This document shows, one piece after another, positions 1 through 9,074 of a stretch of 9,074 nucleotides of DNA (position 1 is the first letter of the stretch; each line of letters starts with the position of its first letter). A model generated the notes under the pieces. That model searched no databases and was not told the DNA's origin. It saw only the letters and a list, made by a program, of their open reading frames with translations. Both the position numbers and the translations under genes were made by a program. Source of the stretch: JBBIVP01 sp037439705 [NCBI: bacterium] (GTDB taxonomy: Bacteria; JBBIVP01); NCBI GenBank assembly GCA_037439705.1, contig JBBIVP010000082.1, positions 1 to 9,074 of the forward strand, given 5' to 3'.

Positions 1-2
1 AT

Positions 3-125
3 ATAAACATAAAGTGGAATTTTTGGGTAAAAGTGACAAAACCGAATGAAGAAACAAGACCTAACCCCATTACCCCCAATTTTACCCCTTTTAACTCAAA
101 TTTCCAACCCCTTTCCCCCTGGTAA
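3..125 (+). CDS. possible 3' end of an upstream gene (partial, uncertain)
   Basis: Reading from position 3, the frame is open for 40 codons to a TAA at 123-125. The peptide is rich in Pro, Thr, Asn and Phe (for example PNPITPNFTPF) and ends in PLSPW. I recognise no family. The repeated CCC/ACC codons explain why this stretch is so C-rich compared with the rest of the window. Because the upstream part is missing, this could equally be non-coding DNA with a chance open frame. The stop lies 67 bases before the next gene, which leaves room for the candidate promoter seen there. Confidence 0.25.
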   Translation: MNIKWNFWVKVTKPNEETRPNPITPNFTPFNSNFQPLSPW

Positions 126-126
126 C

Positions 127-152
127 AATGTCTATGTTGTTCTACATTTTTT
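127..152 (+). terminator. weak hairpin plus T-run after the possible upstream stop
   Basis: AATGT at 127-131 can pair with ACATT at 144-148 across a 12-base loop, and T residues continue to 152. It sits directly after the possible upstream stop codon, where a terminator would be expected. The stem is only five A/T-rich pairs, so folding would be weak and the call is tentative. Confidence 0.2.
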
Positions 153-157
153 ATCCC

Positions 158-186
158 TTGAATTTATGAATAAAAAATCGTAATGT
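158..186 (+). promoter_or_regulatory. candidate promoter of the signalling operon
   Basis: TTGAAT (158-163) and TAATGT (181-186) are separated by 17 bases, resembling a sigma-70 type -35/-10 pair, although the -10 matches only half of the consensus. A start of transcription about seven bases beyond the -10 would fall at the ATG at 193. No Shine-Dalgarno sequence precedes that ATG, so a leaderless transcript is possible. The same TTGA plus 17-base arrangement is seen before 5649 and 7469. Confidence 0.3.
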
Positions 187-192
187 TAAAGT

Positions 193-1038
193 ATGACAAA
201 GGGGACAAAGATAGCTCAATTAACAGAGGAGGCGTATAAATTCTTCACAAAAGGAGATTTTCGTAAAGCAATTGAAGTTTTTAAAAAACTCGTTCAATTG
301 AAACCAGACAACGAAAAAAACAGGATGAAACTGGCTGAATGCTATTTAAAACTGGGAGAGAAAAAATCCGCTTTTCAGGAATACTTTGAAGTAGCAAAAC
401 TCTATAAAGAAAAGGGATTTTTAGTGCAGGCAATTTCTGTTTCCAAAATTCTTCAGAACATAATGCCCCAGGACGAAATGGTTAATAAATTTATTGATGA
501 ACTTTACAGGGAAAGAGGAATTACAGCGAAGACAAAAAAAGAAGAAGCCCCACCCATTGAAAAAGAGGAAGAGATAATAGAAATTGAGATGGAGGAAGAG
601 GAGGAAGAGAAAGAAGAAAGACCTGCATTTCCAAAAATTTCTTTTTTTTCATCCCTTGCTCTTGATGAGTTTAAAGAGGTTATAAATAACCTTTCTACAA
701 AATCATTTTCTCAAGGTGAGGTTATTGTGGAAGAAGGAAATATCCTCAATGCTCTTTACATAATTTCTCAGGGTGATGTGGAAATAATATCCAAAGGTAA
801 AAGAATAACAACCCTTCCTCCGGGTTCATTCATCGGACAAAAATCTTTTTTTGAACGTTCACCAATAAGTGCTTCGGCTTTGGCTCTTACAGATGTAATA
901 CTTCTTGAACTTACCCATCAAAGCCTTAATGATATAATAAAAAAATATCCAAAGGTCAAATCTGCAGTAGAGGAAATCTACATAGAAAAGGTTTTTATCC
1001 CAATTCTGAAATCATCCCCTGTTCTCCGCAATTCCTGA
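193..1038 (+). CDS. TPR and cyclic-nucleotide-binding-like protein, N-terminal part (frameshifted)
   Basis: This is the first gene of the signalling operon, 281 residues, predicted cytoplasmic. Residues about 10-105 look like tetratricopeptide helices (FTKGDFRKAIEVFKKLVQLK), a protein-interaction scaffold. Residues 113-142 form a strongly acidic, Glu-rich linker. Residues about 150-265 form a cAMP-receptor-type beta-roll. Its phosphate-binding cassette is degenerate: the usual Gly-Glu is Gly-Gln (Q216), and the phosphate-binding Arg is Ile (I225). Cyclic nucleotide binding by this domain is therefore doubtful. The frame ends in VLRNS and TGA exactly where a second domain should begin, and the missing PLFS start of that domain is readable one frame over. 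The gene was probably once continuous to 1438. It has no visible DNA-binding, kinase or membrane segment. The ATG at 193 lacks a ribosome binding site. Confidence 0.85.
   Translation: MTKGTKIAQLTEEAYKFFTKGDFRKAIEVFKKLVQLKPDNEKNRMKLAECYLKLGEKKSAFQEYFEVAKLYKEKGFLVQAISVSKILQNIMPQDEMVNKFIDELYRERGITAKTKKEEAPPIEKEEEIIEIEMEEEEEEKEERPAFPKISFFSSLALDEFKEVINNLSTKSFSQGEVIVEEGNILNALYIISQGDVEIISKGKRITTLPPGSFIGQKSFFERSPISASALALTDVILLELTHQSLNDIIKKYPKVKSAVEEIYIEKVFIPILKSSPVLRNS
1010..1038 (+). other. apparent frameshift site between two CNB domains
   Basis: Frame 1 (the 193 ORF) and frame 2 (the ORF ending at 1438) overlap only here, from just after a frame-2 TGA (1007-1009) to the frame-1 TGA (1036-1038). 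Frame 1 reads KSSP then VLRNS and stops. Frame 2 reads LFSAIPESDLPTIAPWF, which is what should follow SSP, since the intact downstream gene has FSPLFSELDADD at the equivalent place. The shift most likely lies in the CCCC run at 1016-1019: one extra base or two missing bases would restore one 415-residue-class protein. A sequencing or assembly error, a real mutation, or programmed +1 frameshifting could each explain it. Confidence 0.75.
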
Positions 1039-1072
1039 AAGCGACCTGCCTACGATTGCTCCCTGGTTTAAC

Positions 1073-1438
1073 ATGGTAGAGTTTCAGGAAAACGAAATTG
1101 TCATAAAAGAAGGAGAAGAAGGTAAGGCACTTTACATAGTTAAAACCGGAGAGCTTATGGTATTTAAAAAACTGGCAAAGGGAAAGGCTGTAAAGCTGAC
1201 CGTGCTCGGACCAGGGGATATATTCGGAGAAATTTCAATTCTTACAGGAGGAAAAACCACAGCAAGCGTGAAGGCAATCAAAAATACAACCGCTATGAGC
1301 CTTGAGCGTTCAAAATTTAAAGAACTCGTGATGCTCTATCCTGTTGTCCTTGATGGAATCTCAGAAATTATGGATAAAAGGCTCGCCACAAATAAAGCTA
1401 TTATGGAAAAACTTCTTCAGAAGGAGGGAATTGTTTAG
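1073..1438 (+). CDS. cyclic-nucleotide-binding-like domain, C-terminal part of the frameshifted gene
   Basis: This frame encodes a nearly complete CNB beta-roll of 121 residues if started at the ATG at 1073. The frame is open from 1010, however, and the first helix of the domain (LFSAIPESDLPTIAPWF) lies before that ATG. No Shine-Dalgarno sequence precedes 1073, so it is more likely the second CNB domain of the gene starting at 193 than an independent gene. The cassette FGEISILTGGKTTASV keeps the Gly-Glu (E53 from the ATG) but has Thr (T62) in place of the phosphate-binding Arg, so ligand binding may be weak or lost. The C-terminal helix ends in EKLLQKEGIV. Its last codons contain the ribosome binding site of the cyclase gene, and its TAG shares a base with the cyclase GTG start. 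Confidence 0.75.
   Translation: MVEFQENEIVIKEGEEGKALYIVKTGELMVFKKLAKGKAVKLTVLGPGDIFGEISILTGGKTTASVKAIKNTTAMSLERSKFKELVMLYPVVLDGISEIMDKRLATNKAIMEKLLQKEGIV
1421..1428 (+). promoter_or_regulatory. strong ribosome binding site fixing the cyclase GTG start
   Basis: AAGGAGGG lies inside the end of the preceding gene with nine bases to the GTG at 1438. The GTG overlaps the upstream stop as TAGTG, which suggests translational coupling. This site decides for the GTG start over later candidates. Confidence 0.7.
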
Positions 1439-3648
1439 TGAAAAAATTTCTTCTAAAGGAATTTCCCTTCATTTTTTTATTCATGCTTCTTTCAGGATTT
1501 TTCTACATAAGAGGGTGCGAATTCATTGACTATATGGAATTAAAATCCCTTGATTACAGAGTGAAGATAAAAGGAAAGGAAAAACCTGTTGAGGATGTGA
1601 TAATAGTAGCCATTGATGAAAAAAGCATTAAGGAACTTGGAAGGTGGCCCTGGTCAAGGGATATAATAGCCCAGGGAATAGAAAAACTCATCAAAATGGG
1701 AGCGAAGACGGTGGGACTTGATATAGTTTTTTCGGAAAGGGAAGAATTCAAACAGAAGGAAAAATTTATTGAATTTCTTGAGCAGATGGAAGACGAAGAA
1801 TTAAAGAAAAACCTTTCGGTGGTAATCCGGAACATAAATCCTGATAAAAATCTGGTCGAAACTTTCAGAAGGTATAGAGAAAATATCGTGGCAGGTTATT
1901 TTGTATTTATGAAAGAAGAGGAAATAGGAGATGTTAAAATAAAATGGAGTGACAGATATATAAAAAATTCTTTTGTAAATGTGATTATAAACTCCACCCC
2001 CAGTGTGGAACCCGTTTTAAAAAGAGCGATTGCGGTGGAAAATAATATCCAGGACATTGAAATGGCTACCAAACACTTTGGTTTCTTTAATGCCATTTCT
2101 GACAAGGACGGAATTTACAGAAGAGCCCTTTTATTAATTCGTATAGGAGATACAATCTATCCCTCCCTTCCACTTGAAATGCTGAGGGTTTATACTGATT
2201 CTAACATCATAGTTTATGCTACTGATGGTTTCATAACAAAAATAAAAATCGGAAATTACTCTATATATCCCGATGAAAAAGGAACCATTCCCCTTGCATT
2301 TCTTGGTCCCGGAAAAACATTCCCCCATTATAGTTTTTCTGACATAATTAAGGAAAGGATATCTCCTGAAAAAATAAAGGGGAAAATGGTTTTGATAGGA
2401 GCGACTGCAATTGGAATATACGATCTGAGACCAACTCCCATGGACGAAAGATTCCCTGGAGTAGAAGTTCATGCAACCGTAATTGACAACATACTTAAGT
2501 CAAGACCTCTCAAAAGATATGACTGGATGTGGATATTTGAGATGCTCGGAATATGGCTTATGTTTTTTATAATGGGAACGGTGTTCTTAAAAACAGGACC
2601 TTTTCCAGCAATCCTTACCTCAGCAGGAATCATTTTATTTTTCAATGCTTTCGCTTTTTACCTGTTTTTGAAGAAAAGAATATGGGTTATACTCCTTTAT
2701 CCCAACATATCCCTTCTCGGTCTAACACTTATAATGAGTTTCTACAAGTACCTCTCAGAAGAGAAAATGAAAAAAATGATAAAAAATGCTTTCAGCAAAT
2801 ATCTCAGCGATAAACTCGTTGAGATTATTGTCAGGAACCCCGAAAAATTAAAACTCGGTGGAGAAAAAAAGGAAATAACCGTTCTTTTTTCTGACATAAG
2901 GGGGTTCACATCTATTTCCGAAAAACTCCCACCGGAAGAAATCGCCAACCTACTTCATGAGTATCTCACACCAATGTCTGAGGTTATACTTGAAAACGAC
3001 GGTCTGTTAGATAAATACATAGGAGATGCGATAATGGCTCTCTTTGGCACACCCGTATGGATGGAAACACATGCTATAAAGGCATGTGAAACTGCTCTTT
3101 CAATGATAAAAAAACTGGACGAACTCAATAAAAAATGGGAAAAAACAAAGGGACTGAAACTTAAAATAGGGATAGGGATAAATACGGGTGAATGTGTTGT
3201 GGGAAACATGGGCTCAGATATTCTGTTTGACTATACTGCAGTTGGCGACACTGTAAATCTCGCATCCAGACTTGAAGGCACGACAAAGTTTTATGGCGTT
3301 GGAATTGTGGTAAGCGAATTTACTGTTTCAAAAACAGGTAAACAATTTCTTTTCAGAAAACTTGACCTTGTTAGAGTAAAAGGAAAAGAAAAGCCAGTGA
3401 AAATTTATGAACTTGTGGGAAGAAATAATGAGGTGGATGGAAAAATGAAAAATTTTATATCCCTCTTTCACCAGGCTTTAGTTAATTACATAGAAGGAAA
3501 ATGGGAAATAGCAATTGATGGTTTCAGAAACTGCCTTGAAATTTTTCCAGAAGACAAACCGTCAAAACTTTATTTAGAAAGGTGCTTAAAATTGAAAGAA
3601 ATGAAAATTGAAAGATGGGAAGGAATATATGAAATGGAGGTAAAATGA
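1438..3648 (+). CDS. CHASE2-domain class III adenylate cyclase with C-terminal TPR-like tail
   Basis: This 736-residue membrane enzyme is predicted to convert ATP to cAMP. A first membrane helix (about 9-24) leads to a CHASE2 sensor domain outside the membrane (about 30-355; landmarks IVAIDEKSIKELGRWPWSRD and KMVLIGATAIGIYDLRPTP). Three more helices follow (about 363-383, 387-411, 414-436), which places the C-terminal half in the cytoplasm. The class III catalytic domain spans about 476-660. Metal aspartates D486 (FSDIRGF) and D530 (IGD) are present, as are transition-state N607 and R611 (TVNLASR). K526 and D598 are at the positions that select adenine, favouring adenylate over guanylate cyclase. 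Residues about 665-720 resemble a TPR (WEIAIDGFRNCLEIFPED), as is common in this family. All catalytic residues on one chain suggest a homodimer. The ligand sensed by CHASE2 is unknown. It lies between two CNB genes. Confidence 0.93.
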   Translation: MKKFLLKEFPFIFLFMLLSGFFYIRGCEFIDYMELKSLDYRVKIKGKEKPVEDVIIVAIDEKSIKELGRWPWSRDIIAQGIEKLIKMGAKTVGLDIVFSEREEFKQKEKFIEFLEQMEDEELKKNLSVVIRNINPDKNLVETFRRYRENIVAGYFVFMKEEEIGDVKIKWSDRYIKNSFVNVIINSTPSVEPVLKRAIAVENNIQDIEMATKHFGFFNAISDKDGIYRRALLLIRIGDTIYPSLPLEMLRVYTDSNIIVYATDGFITKIKIGNYSIYPDEKGTIPLAFLGPGKTFPHYSFSDIIKERISPEKIKGKMVLIGATAIGIYDLRPTPMDERFPGVEVHATVIDNILKSRPLKRYDWMWIFEMLGIWLMFFIMGTVFLKTGPFPAILTSAGIILFFNAFAFYLFLKKRIWVILLYPNISLLGLTLIMSFYKYLSEEKMKKMIKNAFSKYLSDKLVEIIVRNPEKLKLGGEKKEITVLFSDIRGFTSISEKLPPEEIANLLHEYLTPMSEVILENDGLLDKYIGDAIMALFGTPVWMETHAIKACETALSMIKKLDELNKKWEKTKGLKLKIGIGINTGECVVGNMGSDILFDYTAVGDTVNLASRLEGTTKFYGVGIVVSEFTVSKTGKQFLFRKLDLVRVKGKEKPVKIYELVGRNNEVDGKMKNFISLFHQALVNYIEGKWEIAIDGFRNCLEIFPEDKPSKLYLERCLKLKEMKIERWEGIYEMEVK
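3636..3640 (+). promoter_or_regulatory. ribosome binding site of the tandem CNB gene
   Basis: GGAGG lies within the last codons of the cyclase gene, nine bases before the ATG at 3650. The cyclase stop (3646-3648) and this start are one base apart, so the two proteins are probably made from one message. Confidence 0.6.
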
Positions 3649-3649
3649 T

Positions 3650-4489
3650 ATGAAAGAAAAACTTAAAAAGGTTTACTTTTTGAGGGACCTTGATGATGAA
3701 GCCTTATCCGCTGTTCAAGGTGTATGCTCCATAAGGACATTTTCAAAGGGAGATAAAATCATTGAAGAGGGTGAAGAAAGTTATTCTATCTTCATAATCA
3801 CTGATGGAAAGGTTCATGTGTATAAAAAGGACATCACGGGTGCAATGAAGTTTATGGATGAACTTGGTGAAGGAAATTTCTTCGGGGAGATAAGTTTTCT
3901 GACCGGCAGACCGAGAACCGCAACGGTAGTTGCCCATACAGACACTACCCTTTATGAAATCTCAAAAGAAGATATGGAAAAGATTGAAGAATCCTATCCG
4001 CAGATAAAAAGCGTTCTTGTGGATTTCTACAAAATTCGTGTTCTTGATTCACTCCTCGCATTCTCGCCTCTTTTTTCTGAACTTGATGCAGATGATAGAA
4101 AATATGTTCTTACAAAGTTCAAACCCGATATATATCAGCCGAATCAGGTGATAGCTCAAGAAGGAACAGAGGGAGATTATCTTTTTGTAATAAAAACTGG
4201 AAAGGTAGTAGTGAAAACAAAAGACATAAAAGGGAGGGAAATAAAACTTGTAGAACTCGGTCCAGGGGATTTTTTCGGAGAGATAGCCTTGATCACAAAC
4301 ATCCCGAGAACAGCTACTGTGACTGCCATTACAAAGGTGGGGGTTTTAAAGATGTCAAAGAGTGATTTCATGGAGATAATCCAGCTTTATCCATCAGTTT
4401 TTGAGAAAGGAATTGAATATGTAAAGAAAAGGGCTGAAGACACACTAACAATACTTCTTGATGCAAGAAAAACCGAGAGACTGGAATAA
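3650..4489 (+). CDS. tandem cyclic-nucleotide-binding protein (two intact CNB domains)
   Basis: The protein has 279 residues and is almost entirely two CNB beta-rolls, about 5-130 and 137-262. Both cassettes look competent. The first has FGEISFLTGRPRTATV, with E80 contacting ribose and R89 contacting the cyclic phosphate in known family members. The second has FGEIALITNIPRTATV with E211 and R220. It probably binds the cAMP made by the cyclase encoded immediately upstream. There is no helix-turn-helix, kinase, channel or membrane segment, so it is not a CRP-type regulator. The arrangement resembles a protein kinase A regulatory subunit without its inhibitor segment, and output is presumably by protein contact. 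It resembles the two degenerate CNB domains encoded upstream of the cyclase, which suggests duplication and divergence. The short C-terminal tail (RAEDTLTILLDARKTERLE) is charged. The partner is unknown. Confidence 0.9.
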   Translation: MKEKLKKVYFLRDLDDEALSAVQGVCSIRTFSKGDKIIEEGEESYSIFIITDGKVHVYKKDITGAMKFMDELGEGNFFGEISFLTGRPRTATVVAHTDTTLYEISKEDMEKIEESYPQIKSVLVDFYKIRVLDSLLAFSPLFSELDADDRKYVLTKFKPDIYQPNQVIAQEGTEGDYLFVIKTGKVVVKTKDIKGREIKLVELGPGDFFGEIALITNIPRTATVTAITKVGVLKMSKSDFMEIIQLYPSVFEKGIEYVKKRAEDTLTILLDARKTERLE

Positions 4490-4491
4490 AA

Positions 4492-5592
4492 TTGGATAAA
4501 CCCTCAAAAAATTTAAAAAAAATTCTTACCCTCTACAGAATAGGTTCTCTTCTCAATTCATCCCTTGAAATAAACATAATCCAGAAAAGAGCAATGGAAG
4601 CAATCACTGAGCTTATGAAGTGTGAAGCAGGCTCCCTCCTTCTTGTTGATGAAAACACCAATGAACTCTACTTCCAGATAGCCCTCGGAGAAAAGGGAGA
4701 AGAAGTAAAAGAAATAAGGTTAAAAATTGGTGAAGGAATCGCGGGATGGGTGGCAAAAGAAGGAAAAAGCATTATCGTTCATGATGTAAGAAAAGACCCG
4801 AGGTGGTTCAGAAAGGCAGATGAAAAAACAAAGTTTCAAACAAGAAATATGATATGCGTGCCTGTGAAAAGCAAGGGAAAGGTTATAGGAGTTATCCAGG
4901 GAATAAACAAAAAAAGAGGAAAATGGACAAAGGATGACCTAAAACTTCTTGAACATTTCAGCAATCAATTGAGTATCGCAATAGAAAATGCGAGGCTTTA
5001 TGAAGAATTAAAGAAAACATTTTATGAAACATCACAAGCTCTTGCTGAAGCAATAGAAATGAGAGACCCGTATACAGGCGGGCACACATTAAGGGTAATG
5101 AAGTATTCGAAAGCAATAGCTGATGAGATGGGTTTAAGCAAAGAAGAAATAGAGAAGATAAAAATCTCTGCCATTCTCCACGATGTTGGGAAAATAGGGA
5201 TAGAGGATTCAATTTTGAGAAAATCATCAGGATTGACCGAGGAAGAATTGAAAAAGATGATGGAACATCCTAATATCGGAGAAGAAATTGTGAAAAAAGT
5301 AAGTTCATTAAAGGAGGTAGCTATCATAATAAGAGCCCATCAGGAAAGATTTGATGGTAAAGGGTATCCCGATGGATTGAAGGGCGAAGAAATACCATTG
5401 CACGCAAGAATAATAGCAGTTGCTGATAGTTTTGATGCAATGATAACTGACAGACCCTACCGAAAAGGATTACCTGTAGAGAAGGCTGTAGAGGAATTAA
5501 AAAAAAACATAGGGATTCAGTTTGACCCGGATGTAGTGAATGCATTCCTAAGAGCCTTTGCGAAGGGAAAAATAAAAGAATCCGCGTCCTAA
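4492..5592 (+). CDS. GAF domain / HD-GYP cyclic di-GMP phosphodiesterase
   Basis: This is a 366-residue cytoplasmic protein. A GAF sensor domain covers about 10-168 (EAGSLLLVDENTNELYFQIA, GEGIAGWV, CVPVKSKGKVIGVIQ) and joins through a signalling helix (about 160-185) to an HD-GYP domain (about 185-355). Metal and catalytic positions are visible: H198 (GGHTLRV), H230-D231 (ILHDVGKIGI), H259 (MEHP), H283, the HQERFDGKGYP motif with GYP at 291-293, and D312 (VADSFDAM). This set predicts hydrolysis of cyclic di-GMP or a related dinucleotide. Its GAF ligand is unknown; some GAF domains bind cyclic nucleotides, and that is a possibility here only because of the neighbours. The start is taken as TTG, two bases after the preceding stop. 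The first in-frame ATG, at residue 35, would cut the first GAF helix. The ribosome binding site is weak (GGA at 4483-4485), so coupling to the upstream gene is likely. Confidence 0.9.
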   Translation: MDKPSKNLKKILTLYRIGSLLNSSLEINIIQKRAMEAITELMKCEAGSLLLVDENTNELYFQIALGEKGEEVKEIRLKIGEGIAGWVAKEGKSIIVHDVRKDPRWFRKADEKTKFQTRNMICVPVKSKGKVIGVIQGINKKRGKWTKDDLKLLEHFSNQLSIAIENARLYEELKKTFYETSQALAEAIEMRDPYTGGHTLRVMKYSKAIADEMGLSKEEIEKIKISAILHDVGKIGIEDSILRKSSGLTEEELKKMMEHPNIGEEIVKKVSSLKEVAIIIRAHQERFDGKGYPDGLKGEEIPLHARIIAVADSFDAMITDRPYRKGLPVEKAVEELKKNIGIQFDPDVVNAFLRAFAKGKIKESAS

Positions 5593-5610
5593 TCCGGGCT
5601 CATTCCTTCC

Positions 5611-5639
5611 TTGATATTTTCCTGAAAAATCTGTAAATT
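5611..5639 (+). promoter_or_regulatory. candidate promoter of the PP-loop/tatC pair
   Basis: TTGATA (5611-5616) and TAAATT (5634-5639) are 17 bases apart, in the 56-base gap after the HD-GYP gene. Transcription would begin around 5646-5649, at or just before the ATG at 5649, which has no clear Shine-Dalgarno sequence. The spacer holds an imperfect inverted repeat (GATATTTTC at 5613-5621, GAAAAATC at 5624-5631), which could be an operator or chance in A/T-rich DNA. Confidence 0.4.
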
Positions 5640-5648
5640 TTTGATGGC

Positions 5649-6665
5649 ATGAAAAAGATAAGGGCAATAGCGCTTCTTTCCGGTGGACTTGATTCTACGC
5701 TTTCTGCAAAAATAGTCATAAGGGAAGGAATAGAAATAATAGGCATCCATTTTTATACGGGATTTTCATTTATTGAAAGAAAGAGGATGATCGGAACCCT
5801 TAGAGAAACAATATTTTCAAAAACCATTGAGCAGTTGGGAATTCCTGTAGAAATTGTTGACATATCGGATGGTTATATGGATATTATCTTGTACCCGAAG
5901 TATGGATACGGAGCAAATGCTAATCCCTGTCTTGATTGTAAAATCTATATGTTCAGAAAAGCCAAGGAACTCCTTGAAAAATTTGATGCAAAATTTATCG
6001 TAACAGGTGAGGTTCTCAAACAGCGACCAATGTCCCAGCAGAAGCATCAACTTATGTTAATTGAAAAAGAAATCGGATTAAAGGGGATTATTGTAAGACC
6101 GCTTTCTCAGAAGCTTTTTCCGGAAACAATTCCTGAAAAAGAGGGGTGGATAAACCGGAAGAAACTTTATGATATAAACGGAAGGTCAAGAAAAATTCAG
6201 ATGAAACTTGCAGAAGAACTTGGTATCAAAGAATATCCACAGCCTGCTGGAGGATGCTGTTTCTTAACCGAAGAAACTTATGGAAGGAGATTCTTTGATT
6301 ATATTGAACACAACCCGAAAGAAAAATTTACGAGAAAAGAGGCACTTCTTCTTGCGTTTGGGAGACACTTTCGTATAAGCGAAAAAACAAAAGCAATTGT
6401 TGGAAGAAACGAAAGGGAGAACCGAGTTCTTGAAGAGTTTTCAAATGGAAGAATAATTTTATATCCTGAGGACAGAAAAGGACCTATAATGCTCCTGGAT
6501 CCAACTTCTACAGAGGATGAAATAGAAAAAGCTGCGAGGCTTTTTGTAAGATATTGCAAAAAGGAAAAAGACAAAATTTCAATAAATGTCCACTTCGAAA
6601 ACACCGTAAGAACCCTTTCCGTTGAGCCCCTTGAAGAACATGAAATAGAAAAAATGAGGATTTAA
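5649..6665 (+). CDS. PP-loop tRNA thiolation-type protein with C-terminal NFACT-R-like domain
   Basis: The 338-residue cytoplasmic protein opens with a PP-loop ATP-pyrophosphatase motif (SGGLDS, residues 11-16), used by ThiI and MnmA enzymes to adenylate a tRNA base before sulfur insertion. A Cys pair follows (C94, C97 in NPCLDCK), then TGEVLKQRPMSQ (119-130) and a Gly-Gly-Cys-Cys pair (203-204), so sulfur transfer or a metal site on Cys is likely. Residues about 225-338 form a separate domain (LLLAFGRHFRIS, KGPIMLLDPTS, AARLFVRYCKKEKD). This resembles the NFACT-R / DUF814-type RNA-binding domain and would deliver RNA to the active site. The N-terminal ferredoxin-like/THUMP part of classical ThiI is absent. 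The modified base cannot be read from sequence; database annotation may call such proteins ThiI-like. It forms a transcription unit with tatC, one base downstream, with no obvious functional link. Confidence 0.8.
   Translation: MKKIRAIALLSGGLDSTLSAKIVIREGIEIIGIHFYTGFSFIERKRMIGTLRETIFSKTIEQLGIPVEIVDISDGYMDIILYPKYGYGANANPCLDCKIYMFRKAKELLEKFDAKFIVTGEVLKQRPMSQQKHQLMLIEKEIGLKGIIVRPLSQKLFPETIPEKEGWINRKKLYDINGRSRKIQMKLAEELGIKEYPQPAGGCCFLTEETYGRRFFDYIEHNPKEKFTRKEALLLAFGRHFRISEKTKAIVGRNERENRVLEEFSNGRIILYPEDRKGPIMLLDPTSTEDEIEKAARLFVRYCKKEKDKISINVHFENTVRTLSVEPLEEHEIEKMRI
6655..6660 (+). promoter_or_regulatory. ribosome binding site of tatC
   Basis: TGAGGA in the final codons of the PP-loop gene lies six bases before the ATG at 6667. 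It fixes the tatC start and supports co-translation from one message. Confidence 0.5.
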
Positions 6666-6666
6666 G

Positions 6667-7383
6667 ATGCCAGAAAAGGAAATGACATTTATTGAACATC
6701 TTGAAGAACTGAGAAAAAGAGTAATCGTCTCTCTAATCGCAGTTGGTGTATGCTTCATAATCAGTTATATATTTTCCAAACAAATTCTTTCCTTCATCCT
6801 TCTTCCCTATACAAAAAATGTGGGCAAAAACCCCCTTGTATTCATAACCCCTGTTGAGGGGTTTTTAACCTATCTAAAAGTTGCTTTCTTCTCGGGTTTA
6901 TTTTTTGCAAGCCCTGTTATTCTTTATGAATTCTGGGCATTTGTAGACCCTGCCCTTTATCCTCACGAAAGAAAAGTTGCCTTTCCAACACTCGTTCTTT
7001 CTATAATTTTCTTTGTAGGAGGATGTGCTTTTTGTTATTTCCTCGTGCTACCAATTGCTGTTAAATACCTAATACTGGGCTTTTCTTCCGATATACTTTC
7101 ACCGATGATATCTGTTGGAAAATATCTATCTTTCTCCCTCGTTCTTATTCTTGCCTTCGGTCTCATATTTGAATCACCTCTCGTTCTTTTTTTTATGAAT
7201 AGATTGGGACTTATTCAAGTTGAAACCCTTACAAAAAATAGAAGCGTAATAATAGTGGTGATATTTATAATTGCTGCTATTCTGACACCTCCGGATGTGA
7301 TCAGTCAGATATTACTTGCCCTTCCGCTTCTTTTTCTTTTTGAACTAACAATACTTGCAATAAAAATTTTTGGAAAAAGGTAA
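6667..7383 (+). CDS. tatC: Sec-independent (twin-arginine) protein translocase subunit TatC
   Basis: TatC is the membrane receptor that recognises twin-arginine signal peptides of folded proteins and works with TatA/TatB. The 238-residue length and layout are typical: a cytoplasmic amphipathic start with HLEELRKRV (11-19), and six hydrophobic helices at roughly 19-36, 70-92, 106-131, 151-177, 193-208 and 212-232. The signature stretch EFWAFVDPALYPHERK (88-103) is present, as is the conserved buried glutamate E170 (FGLIFESPLV) in the fourth helix. TPPDVISQ (207-214) matches the usual short loop between the last two helices. No tatA or tatB gene is in the window, so they must be elsewhere. The gene follows the PP-loop gene by one base and is followed by a weak terminator. 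Confidence 0.95.
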   Translation: MPEKEMTFIEHLEELRKRVIVSLIAVGVCFIISYIFSKQILSFILLPYTKNVGKNPLVFITPVEGFLTYLKVAFFSGLFFASPVILYEFWAFVDPALYPHERKVAFPTLVLSIIFFVGGCAFCYFLVLPIAVKYLILGFSSDILSPMISVGKYLSFSLVLILAFGLIFESPLVLFFMNRLGLIQVETLTKNRSVIIVVIFIIAAILTPPDVISQILLALPLLFLFELTILAIKIFGKR

Positions 7384-7405
7384 AAAACCTGAAAGTTCCA
7401 TTTTT
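7371..7405 (+). terminator. candidate intrinsic terminator after tatC
   Basis: TGGAA (7371-7375) can pair with TTCCA (7396-7400), and inside it AGGT (7378-7381) pairs with ACCT (7387-7390) around an AAAAA loop. Five T residues follow at 7401-7405. The hairpin overlaps the last codons and stop of tatC and precedes a candidate promoter for glyA. The stem is short and interrupted, so leaky termination is likely. Confidence 0.4.
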
Positions 7406-7413
7406 CATTGTGT

Positions 7414-7442
7414 TTGAAAATAAATTTTAAAGGTATTATTTT
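7414..7442 (+). promoter_or_regulatory. candidate glyA promoter
   Basis: TTGAAA (7414-7419) and TATTTT (7437-7442) are separated by 17 bases in the tatC-glyA gap. A transcript starting near 7449 would have a leader of about 20 bases carrying the glyA ribosome binding site. I see no purine, glycine or SAM riboswitch; the gap is too short for one. Confidence 0.4.
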
Positions 7443-7456
7443 TTAGAAAAACTTTT

Positions 7457-7467
7457 GAGAGGTGGAG
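7457..7467 (+). promoter_or_regulatory. ribosome binding site fixing the glyA GTG start
   Basis: GAGAGGTGGAG lies just before the GTG at 7469; its core GAGGTG (7459-7464) is four bases from the start. The next in-frame alternative, a TTG at 7481, would be about 16 bases away, so GTG is preferred. Confidence 0.6.
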
Positions 7468-7468
7468 C

Positions 7469-8731
7469 GTGTATAAAATTTTGTGGAAAGTAGACCCTGA
7501 AATAGCAGAGGCAATAAAGAAAGAAATAGAAAGGCAGGAATTCAAACTTGAACTTATAGCTTCAGAAAATTACGCAAGTAAAGCGGTTCTCGTAGCAATG
7601 GCAAATGTCATGAACAACAAATATGCGGAGGGATATCCTGCAAAAAGATACTATGGAGGTTGCGATTATGTGGATATAGCAGAACAACTTGCTATTGAAA
7701 GGTTGAAAAAGTTATTTAGATGTGAATTTGCAAATGTTCAACCCCATTCAGGTGCTCAAGCTAATATGGGAGTATATTTTGCCATTCTCAATCCGGGAGA
7801 TGTGATACTTGGAATGAACCTTTCCCACGGAGGACATTTAACCCACGGAAGTCCCGTTAATTTTTCCGGAAAACTTTACAAGGTTATTTCATACGGAGTG
7901 AACAGAGAAACAGAAACCATTGACTTTGAGGAAGTAAGAAAACTTGCACTTGAACATCGTCCAAAAATGATAGTTACTGGCGCCAGCGCATACCCGAGGG
8001 AGATTGATTTCAAAAGGTTTAAAGAAATTGCGGATGAGGTCGGTGCCTTTCTTATGGCAGATATAGCACATACCGCAGGTCTTGTTGCAGCGGGACTTCA
8101 TATGTCACCAATTCCATCTGCGGATGTGGTGACCGCAACAACCCACAAAACCCTGAGGGGACCAAGGGGAGGAATTATAATGGGAAAATCAGAACACGAA
8201 AAAAAGATAAATTCTTCAGTATTCCCTGGAACACAGGGTGGACCGTTCATGCATGTGATTGCTGCAAAAGCAGTCTGTTTTAAAGAGGCACTTTCAGAGG
8301 AATTCAAAGAATATCAGAAACAGGTTGTAAAAAATGCAAAGAAACTGGCAGAGGTTTTAAAAGAGAAGGGATACAGGCTCGTCTCAGGTGGAACAGATAC
8401 CCATCTGTTTTTGATTGACCTTACAAATAAAAACATAACAGGAAAGGAAGCAGAAGAAGCGCTCGCAAAAGCAGGAATCACAGTTAATAAAAATACAATT
8501 CCTTTTGAAACAAAACCTCCGTTCATTGCAAGTGGAATAAGAATTGGGACGCCGGCAGTGACAACAAGGGGAATGAAGGAAAGAGAAATGGAAATAATTG
8601 GAGAATACATTGATGAAGTTCTGAAACACAGAGAGGATGAAAAATATCTTGAAGAAATAAAAGAGAAAGTCAGAAAACTCTGTGCAGAGTTTCCGGTTTA
8701 TAGAGACCTTCTTGAAGATATTTCAAGATGA
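7469..8731 (+). CDS. glyA: serine hydroxymethyltransferase
   Basis: This PLP enzyme interconverts serine and glycine with transfer of a one-carbon unit to tetrahydrofolate, giving 5,10-methylene-THF for thymidylate, purine and methionine synthesis. The 420 residues are close to the usual bacterial length. Clear landmarks are [10 protein letters not shown] (28-37), [15 protein letters not shown] (50-64), [11 protein letters not shown] (89-99), [17 protein letters not shown] (115-131) and the PLP lysine K227 in [12 protein letters not shown]. Also present are VFPGTQGGP (251-259), the SGGTDTHL folate/substrate region (307-314) and SGIRIGTPA (355-363). The reading frame is intact with no missing active-site residue. 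Its TGA overlaps the ATG of the dCMP deaminase gene as ATGA, so the two are co-translated; the deaminase feeds dUMP to the thymidylate step that uses methylene-THF. Confidence 0.97.
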
Positions 8732-9074
8732 AAAGACCCACCTGGGATGATTATTTTATGGGTTTTGCCTTCCTCGCAAGGGAAAGGTCAACATGCCTGA
8801 GAAGAAAGGTTGGGGCAGTAATTGTGAAAAATAAACAAATCCTTGCTACAGGTTATAATGGAGCACCAAAAGGAATTACTCATTGTGAGGTCACAGGATG
8901 CCTTAGAGAACAACTAAATGTTCCATCCGGGGAAAGGCATGAACTCTGCAGGGGACTTCATGCGGAGCAAAACGCCATAATCCAGGCAGCCTTTCACGGG
9001 GTAAACATTCAAGGTGCTGAAATATATTGCACCGAAATGCCCTGCATTATATCTGCAAAAATGATAATAAATGC
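8728..9074 (+). CDS. dCMP deaminase (ComEB-type), 5' part only
   Basis: The frame opens with the ATG overlapping the glyA stop and runs off the window after 115 codons. The start [20 protein letters not shown] matches the usual beginning of deoxycytidylate deaminases, which convert dCMP to dUMP for thymidylate synthesis. VGAVIV (28-33), [12 protein letters not shown] (42-53), GCLRE (57-61) and [18 protein letters not shown] (67-84) follow in the family order. H78 is the first zinc ligand and E80 the proton shuttle. C106 is the second ligand, in the PCxxC position. The third ligand, normally Cys two residues on (PCxxCAKM), reads Ser here: codon TCT at 9052-9054 gives PCIISAKM. The protein may therefore be impaired, or this may be a base error. 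The missing C-terminus prevents judging the rest. It has no clear ribosome binding site of its own. Confidence 0.9.

Follow-up and report, generated by a model that had tools for sequence, protein, structure and literature searches.

The window analyzed here is a 9,074-nucleotide stretch (positions 1–9,074) of contig JBBIVP010000082.1 of the bacterium JBBIVP01 sp037439705; residue and base numbers refer to window proteins and positions unless stated otherwise. Its + strand carries one tight gene run (193–5592) that encodes a protein with tetratricopeptide repeats and a cyclic nucleotide-binding domain (TPR-CNB), a CHASE2 adenylate cyclase, a protein with two CNB domains (CNB-CNB), and a GAF-HD-GYP protein. 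Judged from sequence comparison, this run would form a membrane sensor relay that turns an outside signal into a change in cyclic di-GMP (c-di-GMP), in which cyclic AMP (cAMP) would act directly on HD-GYP through its GAF domain, and CNB-CNB would be an added branch. We favor this reading tentatively and place its chance a little below even. An extracellular ligand bound by CHASE2 would alter cAMP synthesis, and cAMP bound to the GAF domain would alter phosphodiesterase activity, most likely upward, so that c-di-GMP falls. The cyclase/HD-GYP core would have gained the CNB-CNB protein as another cAMP receptor, which may act as a buffer, a scaffold, or an additional output, and the TPR-CNB(-CNB) protein, if made at all, may serve as a scaffold.

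Evidence for such a core comes from the neighborhoods of other CHASE2 cyclases. A genome scan with the window cyclase found only Orenia metallireducens (locus L001; 29% identity), in which the CHASE2 cyclase gene is followed by a FecR gene and then by a gene for CRP with a helix-turn-helix (HTH) domain (Pfam). The survey covered 299 genomes of the Orenia phylum (Bacillota, NCBI taxonomy), 36 of which have CHASE2; the flanks of all 36 loci were inspected, several of them cut by contig ends. Neighbors were classed when they lay on the cyclase strand, no more than 2.5 kb downstream, and passed a 1e-3 filter, with FecR and CRP references that were taken from L001 by eye and confirmed by Pfam afterwards. 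CRP with HTH together with FecR was found in 18 loci, CRP in 2, GAF-HD-GYP with a DUF3307 protein in 4, an HTH-less CNB protein in 1, FecR only in 1, and none of these in 10. One of the unclassed loci (L049) has a GAF-HD-GYP gene at 2.9 kb, and in L069 a CRP gene lies upstream of the cyclase gene.

In the four pair loci, the GAF-HD-GYP protein (371–394 aa) is encoded after the cyclase on the same strand, at −10 (L047), +393 (L052), +30 (L064), and −73 bases (L065), so that at most a few hundred bases or a single gene separate the two. The gene in between is a DUF3307 gene in L052 and the CNB-CNB gene in the window. In none of the four did the same-strand cluster include a CNB gene, with L064 showing less than 500 bases upstream of its cyclase before the contig ends; the sole CNB gene found nearby encodes a CRP in L065, which is divergent and lies 2.3 kb upstream. 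Because the core recurs without a CNB gene in its cluster, action of cAMP on the GAF domain would be the most economical link between the two enzymes, as with Tlr0485 and Lcd1 (see below). An earlier note on this DNA had coupled the cyclase to c-di-GMP hydrolysis through the CNB-CNB protein. The coupling itself is supported by the recurrence of the pair in 4 of the 36 loci. The route through CNB-CNB is neither needed nor supported, given four pair loci without such a gene in the cluster, and hydrolysis is less certain than had been stated.

By chance, the expected number of GAF-HD-GYP neighbors would be 0.136 with one slot and 0.27 with two (385 HD-GYP genes in the 36 genomes, an assumed 950 genes per Mb, loci treated as independent). 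The corresponding Poisson probabilities of at least four are 1.3e-5 and 1.8e-4; the loci are related to one another, so that these values are only a guide. The four pair genomes are not all from one class, and the pair is patchy: the class of G335 (22 genomes) and that of G138 (3 genomes) each have CHASE2 in that genome only, and neither includes the other pair genomes. Searches among relatives of G335, G100, and G138, and class searches, gave no CHASE2 locus beyond the 36. As for the four-gene module that had been proposed, the cyclase/GAF-HD-GYP half recurs, whereas the full set was present in 0 of the 36 loci of this one phylum, several of them truncated and the lineage of the window outside the set. 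This count goes against the four genes as a conserved unit within the surveyed set. Viral contigs scanned with the CNB-CNB protein and the cyclase gave no match (GlyA gave L013 and L014, which were not used). The window GlyA was at most 67% identical to its counterparts in the 60 genomes that matched, of 64 compared. Plasmid searches revealed no close relative of the module genes, the best matches being 32% over 93% for the cyclase, 35% over 85% for CNB-CNB, and 33% over 96% for GAF-HD-GYP.

A small DUF3307-type protein is encoded near the CHASE2 cyclase in all four pair loci and 1.8 kb away in L044. A gene of this type also directly follows a CHASE2 cyclase gene on the alphaproteobacterial plasmid pAMI5 of Paracoccus aminophilus (L159, 8117–8455). 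The assignment was confirmed by Pfam in L047, L052, L065, and L159, and was made in L064 and L044 by phmmer against the first three. No DUF3307-type gene was found in the window. Of note, CHASE2 cyclases (Pfam) on Shinella and Ensifer plasmids (L158 and L160) lie near FecR and NHLP bacteriocin export genes.

The window GAF-HD-GYP protein is 43% identical to those of L047 and L064, 42% to that of L065, and 38% to that of L052. A profile of these five proteins, run over the 299 genomes, returned the four seeds, then proteins of G101 (498 bits) and of G175, G280, G206, and G256 (415–391 bits), and then matches of at most 322 bits. In a full-length tree of 41 rows, gathered with the window-seeded profile and, apart from the window, all from one phylum, one 11-row clade (98/95) holds the window protein, the four cyclase-linked proteins, four relatives with an HQE motif, and the proteins of G101 and G199. 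By path, L064, L047, and L065 are the rows nearest to the window, whose branch is long and flagged for composition. Of 69 HD-GYP domains, 60 carry HHE, one is a fragment, and the remaining 8, which carry HQE, all fall within this clade; the 69 are a non-random sample, partly collected with the window-seeded profile. L120 and L135 were scored as HHE by eye, and the tree of HD domains excludes the fragment (L157_383). Among the nine best-scoring proteins outside the window, seven have HQE: L115–L118 and the cyclase-linked L047, L064, and L065. The cyclase-linked L052 has HHE at the GYP motif, and its HQE letters lie outside that motif. HQE as a marker of cyclase linkage was rejected, because L052 is HHE and the four HQE relatives lie beside unrelated genes. 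Among 18 loci inspected, the neighbors of five (L153–L157) were not judged, and these rows entered the trees only. In the cyclase tree, which took in 35 of the 36 CHASE2 loci, the four HD-GYP-linked cyclases fall into one 8-row clade (99/98) together with the cyclase of L067; within this set, the window cyclase has its best identity (44%) with the HD-GYP-linked cyclase of L052.

The GAF domain of the window protein is a candidate cAMP receptor and a better candidate than the CNB-CNB protein for passing the signal to HD-GYP. Searched alone against the PDB, it matched CyaB2 (1ykd) and 5w10 first, followed by the GAF domains of PDE5, PDE2, and PDE10. The structure 5W10 is the GAF domain of Lcd1 (PMC11800159; for this and all other papers cited, statements draw on the parts available), and the GAF domains of both CyaB2 and Lcd1 bind cAMP (PMC8846402, PMC4411481). 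At the positions that contact cAMP in CyaB2 (R291, T293, I308, D356, and N359; PMC4411481), alignment by eye gave A, S, I, D, and T in the window and N, S, I, D, and T in Lcd1. At the NKFDE motif, also by eye, the window has N, K, W, D, and L, and Lcd1 has N, R, F, D, and L; the pattern in the GAF-HD-GYP protein PmGH is similar.

The HD-GYP domain of the window protein probably degrades c-di-GMP, as far as its motifs indicate. The HD_5 profile matched at 3.1e-41, and the HD and GYP motifs on which the earlier note had based hydrolysis are both present. The metal ligands of PmGH are E185, H189, H221, D222, H250, H276, H277, and D305; seven of them are common to both HD-GYP groups and E185 is variable (PMC4159591). 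In the window, Tyr stands for E185 and Gln for H277 (HQE instead of HHE), and the other ligands are retained, i.e., six of the seven shared ones. An alignment of five proteins (window, L047, L052, L064, and L065) shows no variation at these six ligands, at the GYP motif, or at the catalytic Asp/Lys pair. The changed metal ligand makes c-di-GMP hydrolysis less certain than the motifs alone had suggested. No tests of an HQE-type metal site turned up in the literature searched, as far as it was available and with no search aimed at HQE by name. AlphaFold models built from single sequences were of poor quality (pLDDT 46.7 and 36.5) and were not used.

The window cyclase probably makes cAMP, to judge from its residues. 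It combines a CHASE2 domain, membrane segments, and a class III catalytic domain. Four hydrophobic stretches were found (residues 4–30, 364–387, 388–411, and 414–436), one N-terminal to CHASE2 and three between CHASE2 and the catalytic domain, an arrangement that fits CHASE2 as an outside sensor. In class III cyclases, a Lys and Asp pair goes with adenine specificity; the window cyclase has this pair (K526/D598) along with the metal-binding Asp pair (D486/D530). Its PDB matches are class III cyclases, among which CyaB (3r5g) has the same residues as K526 and D598, whereas 2w01 carries Glu at the Lys position.

Both cassettes of the CNB-CNB protein are intact, each with its Glu and Arg (E80/R89 and E211/R220). 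The cyclase and CNB-CNB residues were all found exactly at the numbering given previously. In the PDB search, the protein aligned through both CNB domains of PKA RI-alpha with Glu and Arg retained, and the top match was a Toxoplasma protein with several CNB domains. A C-terminal HTH of the CRP/FNR kind was not found, as Pfam reported cNMP_binding alone. A Thr directly follows each cassette Arg (PRTATV). This feature occurs in cGMP- and cAMP-binding CNB domains alike, so it does not settle the nucleotide bound by CNB-CNB. The best match in the 299 genomes reached only 38% identity over residues 27–146, which means that no near relative was found there, and 0 of 149 genomes in the phylum of G084 gave a match at 1e-20. 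Of note, a CNB-DUF2225 protein without HTH is encoded directly after the CHASE2 cyclase in L067 (5744–7027, genome G203) and is a candidate for another non-DNA-binding cAMP receptor.

Several observations weigh against the proposed relay. The survey set holds no sequence from the lineage of the window, and within it CRP is the commoner downstream partner of CHASE2 cyclases (20 of 36 loci). In the window itself, the CNB-CNB gene separates the cyclase gene from the HD-GYP gene. The window cyclase is unplaced in the cyclase tree, and the window HD-GYP is unplaced in the tree of HD domains. The close GAF-HD-GYP relatives in G101, G175, G280, G206, and G256 lie beside unrelated genes in genomes without a CHASE2 match; the subfamily is therefore not bound to cyclases of this kind. 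PmGH, too, largely keeps the pocket positions of the GAF domain and the NK...F...D pattern, and no report of cAMP binding by PmGH was met in the available parts of its literature, so that the GAF pattern does not single out cAMP and is compatible with its binding rather than proof of it. Finally, HQE replaces HHE at the very ligand whose loss (H277A) essentially abolished PmGH activity (PMC4159591).

The two enzymes could instead have parallel outputs: cAMP would drive CNB-CNB or else a CRP encoded at another locus, HD-GYP would respond through its GAF domain to a different ligand, and co-transcription would be all that joins the genes. GAF domains bind many kinds of ligand (PMC4411481), and the frequent CRP partners and the five relatives beside unrelated genes fit such an arrangement. 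The earlier note had reasoned that, with no CRP, kinase, or channel present, the output must be through protein contact. This absence holds within the 9-kb window and not as a statement about the genome, so contact as the only output does not follow, and a CRP may be encoded elsewhere. We regard parallel outputs as unlikely: genes for GAF-HD-GYP lie repeatedly close to those of this cyclase clade, and the window GAF resembles GAF domains that bind cAMP. Slightly more unlikely still is that cAMP binds CNB-CNB, which then docks on the HD-GYP (or TPR) protein to regulate it through contact, in the manner of a PKA regulatory subunit and its kinase. Here the intact cassettes aligned with both RI-alpha domains, the gene position between cyclase and HD-GYP, and the L067 locus, where an HTH-less CNB partner exists, would be in accord. 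Against docking stand the four pair loci without a CNB gene in the cluster, the joint occurrence of an HTH-less CNB and GAF-HD-GYP in 0 of 36 loci, the lack of a near CNB-CNB relative in the 299 genomes, and the fact that no docking segment is readable from the protein.

An altered HD-GYP enzyme is about as improbable as docking and is compatible with the other readings: the HQE form would be weak, different, or inactive, acting as a regulated binding protein. The role of H277 as a metal ligand in PmGH and the confinement of HQE to one subfamily argue for it, whereas the retention of the six other shared ligands, the GYP residues, and the Asp/Lys pair, and the normal HHE of the cyclase-linked L052, argue against it. 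A wider version of the preferred relay is conceivable, if rather doubtful. In this version, a recurrent two-messenger relay found across classes would combine a CHASE2 cyclase with a mostly HQE GAF-HD-GYP protein and usually a DUF3307 membrane protein. Here cAMP would act on the GAF domain, and the altered site would be a cAMP-gated or differently specific cyclic-dinucleotide hydrolase. The window would then be a version enlarged with a CNB-CNB protein resembling the PKA regulatory subunit and with TPR-CNB. If the recurrent sensor cyclase/GAF-HD-GYP pair is real, it would be a two-protein system that wires an outside signal to cAMP and c-di-GMP, and it would predict which CHASE2 cyclases work via c-di-GMP rather than CRP. 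The analysis also points to the HQE subfamily of HD-GYP proteins.

Table. Features of the window and the basis of their assignment.
Feature	Position	Strand	Basis
TPR + first CNB (CNB1) protein	193..1038	+	Open reading frame (ORF); Pfam TPR_19 + cNMP_binding; frame stops at 1038
CNB1 degenerate phosphate-binding cassette, Q/I at canonical Glu/Arg positions	823..873	+	Alignment of four window CNBs
Second CNB (CNB2) of frame-broken first gene (probable), other frame	1010..1438	+	Open frame; CNB match 7.5e-23
CHASE2 class III adenylate cyclase, GTG start, 736 aa	1438..3648	+	ORF; Pfam CHASE2 1e-63, Guanylate_cyc 1.5e-28
CHASE2 sensor domain, residues 23-379	1504..2574	+	Pfam
Cyclase catalytic domain, residues 477-658, with D486, K526, D530, D598	2866..3411	+	Pfam, PDB alignment
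CNB-CNB protein, 279 aa, no HTH	3650..4489	+	Pfam, two cNMP_binding stretches
GAF-HD-GYP protein, TTG start, 366 aa	4492..5592	+	Pfam GAF + HD_5; PDB 4mcw (PmGH) 1.7e-65, residues 32-355
GAF domain, residues 26-165, candidate cAMP receptor	4567..4986	+	Pfam; best PDB matches 1ykd (CyaB2), 5w10 (Lcd1 GAF)
HD-GYP domain, residues 183-348; HD 230-231, HQE 283-285, GYP 291-293	5038..5535	+	Pfam, PmGH alignment
ThiI/MnmA-like ATPase domain + C-terminal NFACT-R_2 RNA-binding domain	5649-6665		Pfam

The run comprises five reading stretches (ORF listing and Pfam), in the order TPR-CNB, frame-broken before its second CNB, then cyclase, CNB-CNB, and GAF-HD-GYP. The junctions are a 1-base overlap, 1 base, and 2 bases, and both these spacings and the gene positions agree with the earlier description. 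The first gene had been described as TPR-CNB(-CNB). Both of its CNB domains are present, although not in one open frame: frame 1 ends at 1038, and the second CNB reading (about 1010–1438) lies in another frame. Since that reading begins before the 1038 stop, a single frame-broken gene would explain the arrangement most simply, with the second CNB as its apparent remainder. The break may stem from a mutation, an assembly error, or a programmed shift. A programmed shift at the stop codon was set aside as the simplest account because the other-frame reading precedes that stop. A 121-aa ORF at 1073 was set aside as a separate gene because its start falls inside the CNB fold. No Shine-Dalgarno-like sequence precedes it, which adds little, as the starts at 193 and 4492 also have no clear one. 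In the CNB1 cassette both Glu and Arg are missing, and in that of CNB2 (1223–1270) Glu is present and Thr replaces Arg (alignment of the four window CNBs). The first protein, TPR-CNB(-CNB), is therefore not expected to bind cAMP in the canonical manner and has probably lost this ability; within the window, intact cassettes are confined to the separate CNB-CNB protein.

After a gap of 56 bases beyond 5592 comes the ThiI/MnmA-like gene, followed by TatC, GlyA, and a dCMP-deaminase-like gene. A simple scan found no + strand terminator-like site at 5592–5649, so the transcript may continue beyond 5592 into these genes. No NCBIfam model scored above cut-off for the 5649–6665 product, and nothing exceeded the gathering score in an Rfam scan of the window. 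Upstream of the operon, the intergenic stretch 61–125 contains several tracts of 4–5 C on the + strand; the matching G tracts of the − strand might form a quadruplex.

cAMP control of c-di-GMP enzymes is already known case by case (Bd1971, Lcd1, and Tlr0485). No description of a CHASE2 cyclase/GAF-HD-GYP pairing was found in the literature searched, which was mostly without subscription papers and in part judged by title or the start of the abstract. Tlr0485 of Thermosynechococcus vulcanus is a c-di-GMP phosphodiesterase that is activated by cAMP (PMC8846402). By description rather than by sequence, it resembles the window protein in combining GAF with HD-GYP; in contrast to the window, the available part of this review mentions neither a dedicated CHASE2 cyclase nor a CNB-CNB gene as its neighbor. 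Lcd1 of Leptospira is a cAMP-dependent diguanylate cyclase (PMC8846402). Its GAF domain ranks second among the PDB matches to the window GAF, but Lcd1 makes c-di-GMP, whereas the window HD-GYP is predicted to degrade it. In Bdellovibrio bacteriovorus, cAMP controls the c-di-GMP phosphodiesterase Bd1971, a CNB-EAL protein (PMC6717892); sensor and EAL are fused in this one protein, whereas the window has separate genes and an HD-GYP domain. PmGH of Persephonella marina (4mcw) shares the GAF-HD-GYP architecture over nearly the whole window protein (see the table) and differs in its E185 and HHE with a tri-iron site (PMC4159591), where the window has Tyr and HQE. The Sinorhizobium meliloti CHASE2 cyclases CyaD1, CyaD2, and CyaK act through the CRP-type Clr (PMC13001267), and the 20 CHASE2 loci with downstream CRP look like this known cyclase-to-CRP kind. 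Like the Orenia CHASE2-FecR-CRP locus, the S. meliloti system resembles the window in joining a CHASE2 cyclase to a CNB-type receptor; in both, this receptor is a DNA-binding CRP, whereas the window has the HTH-less CNB-CNB protein.

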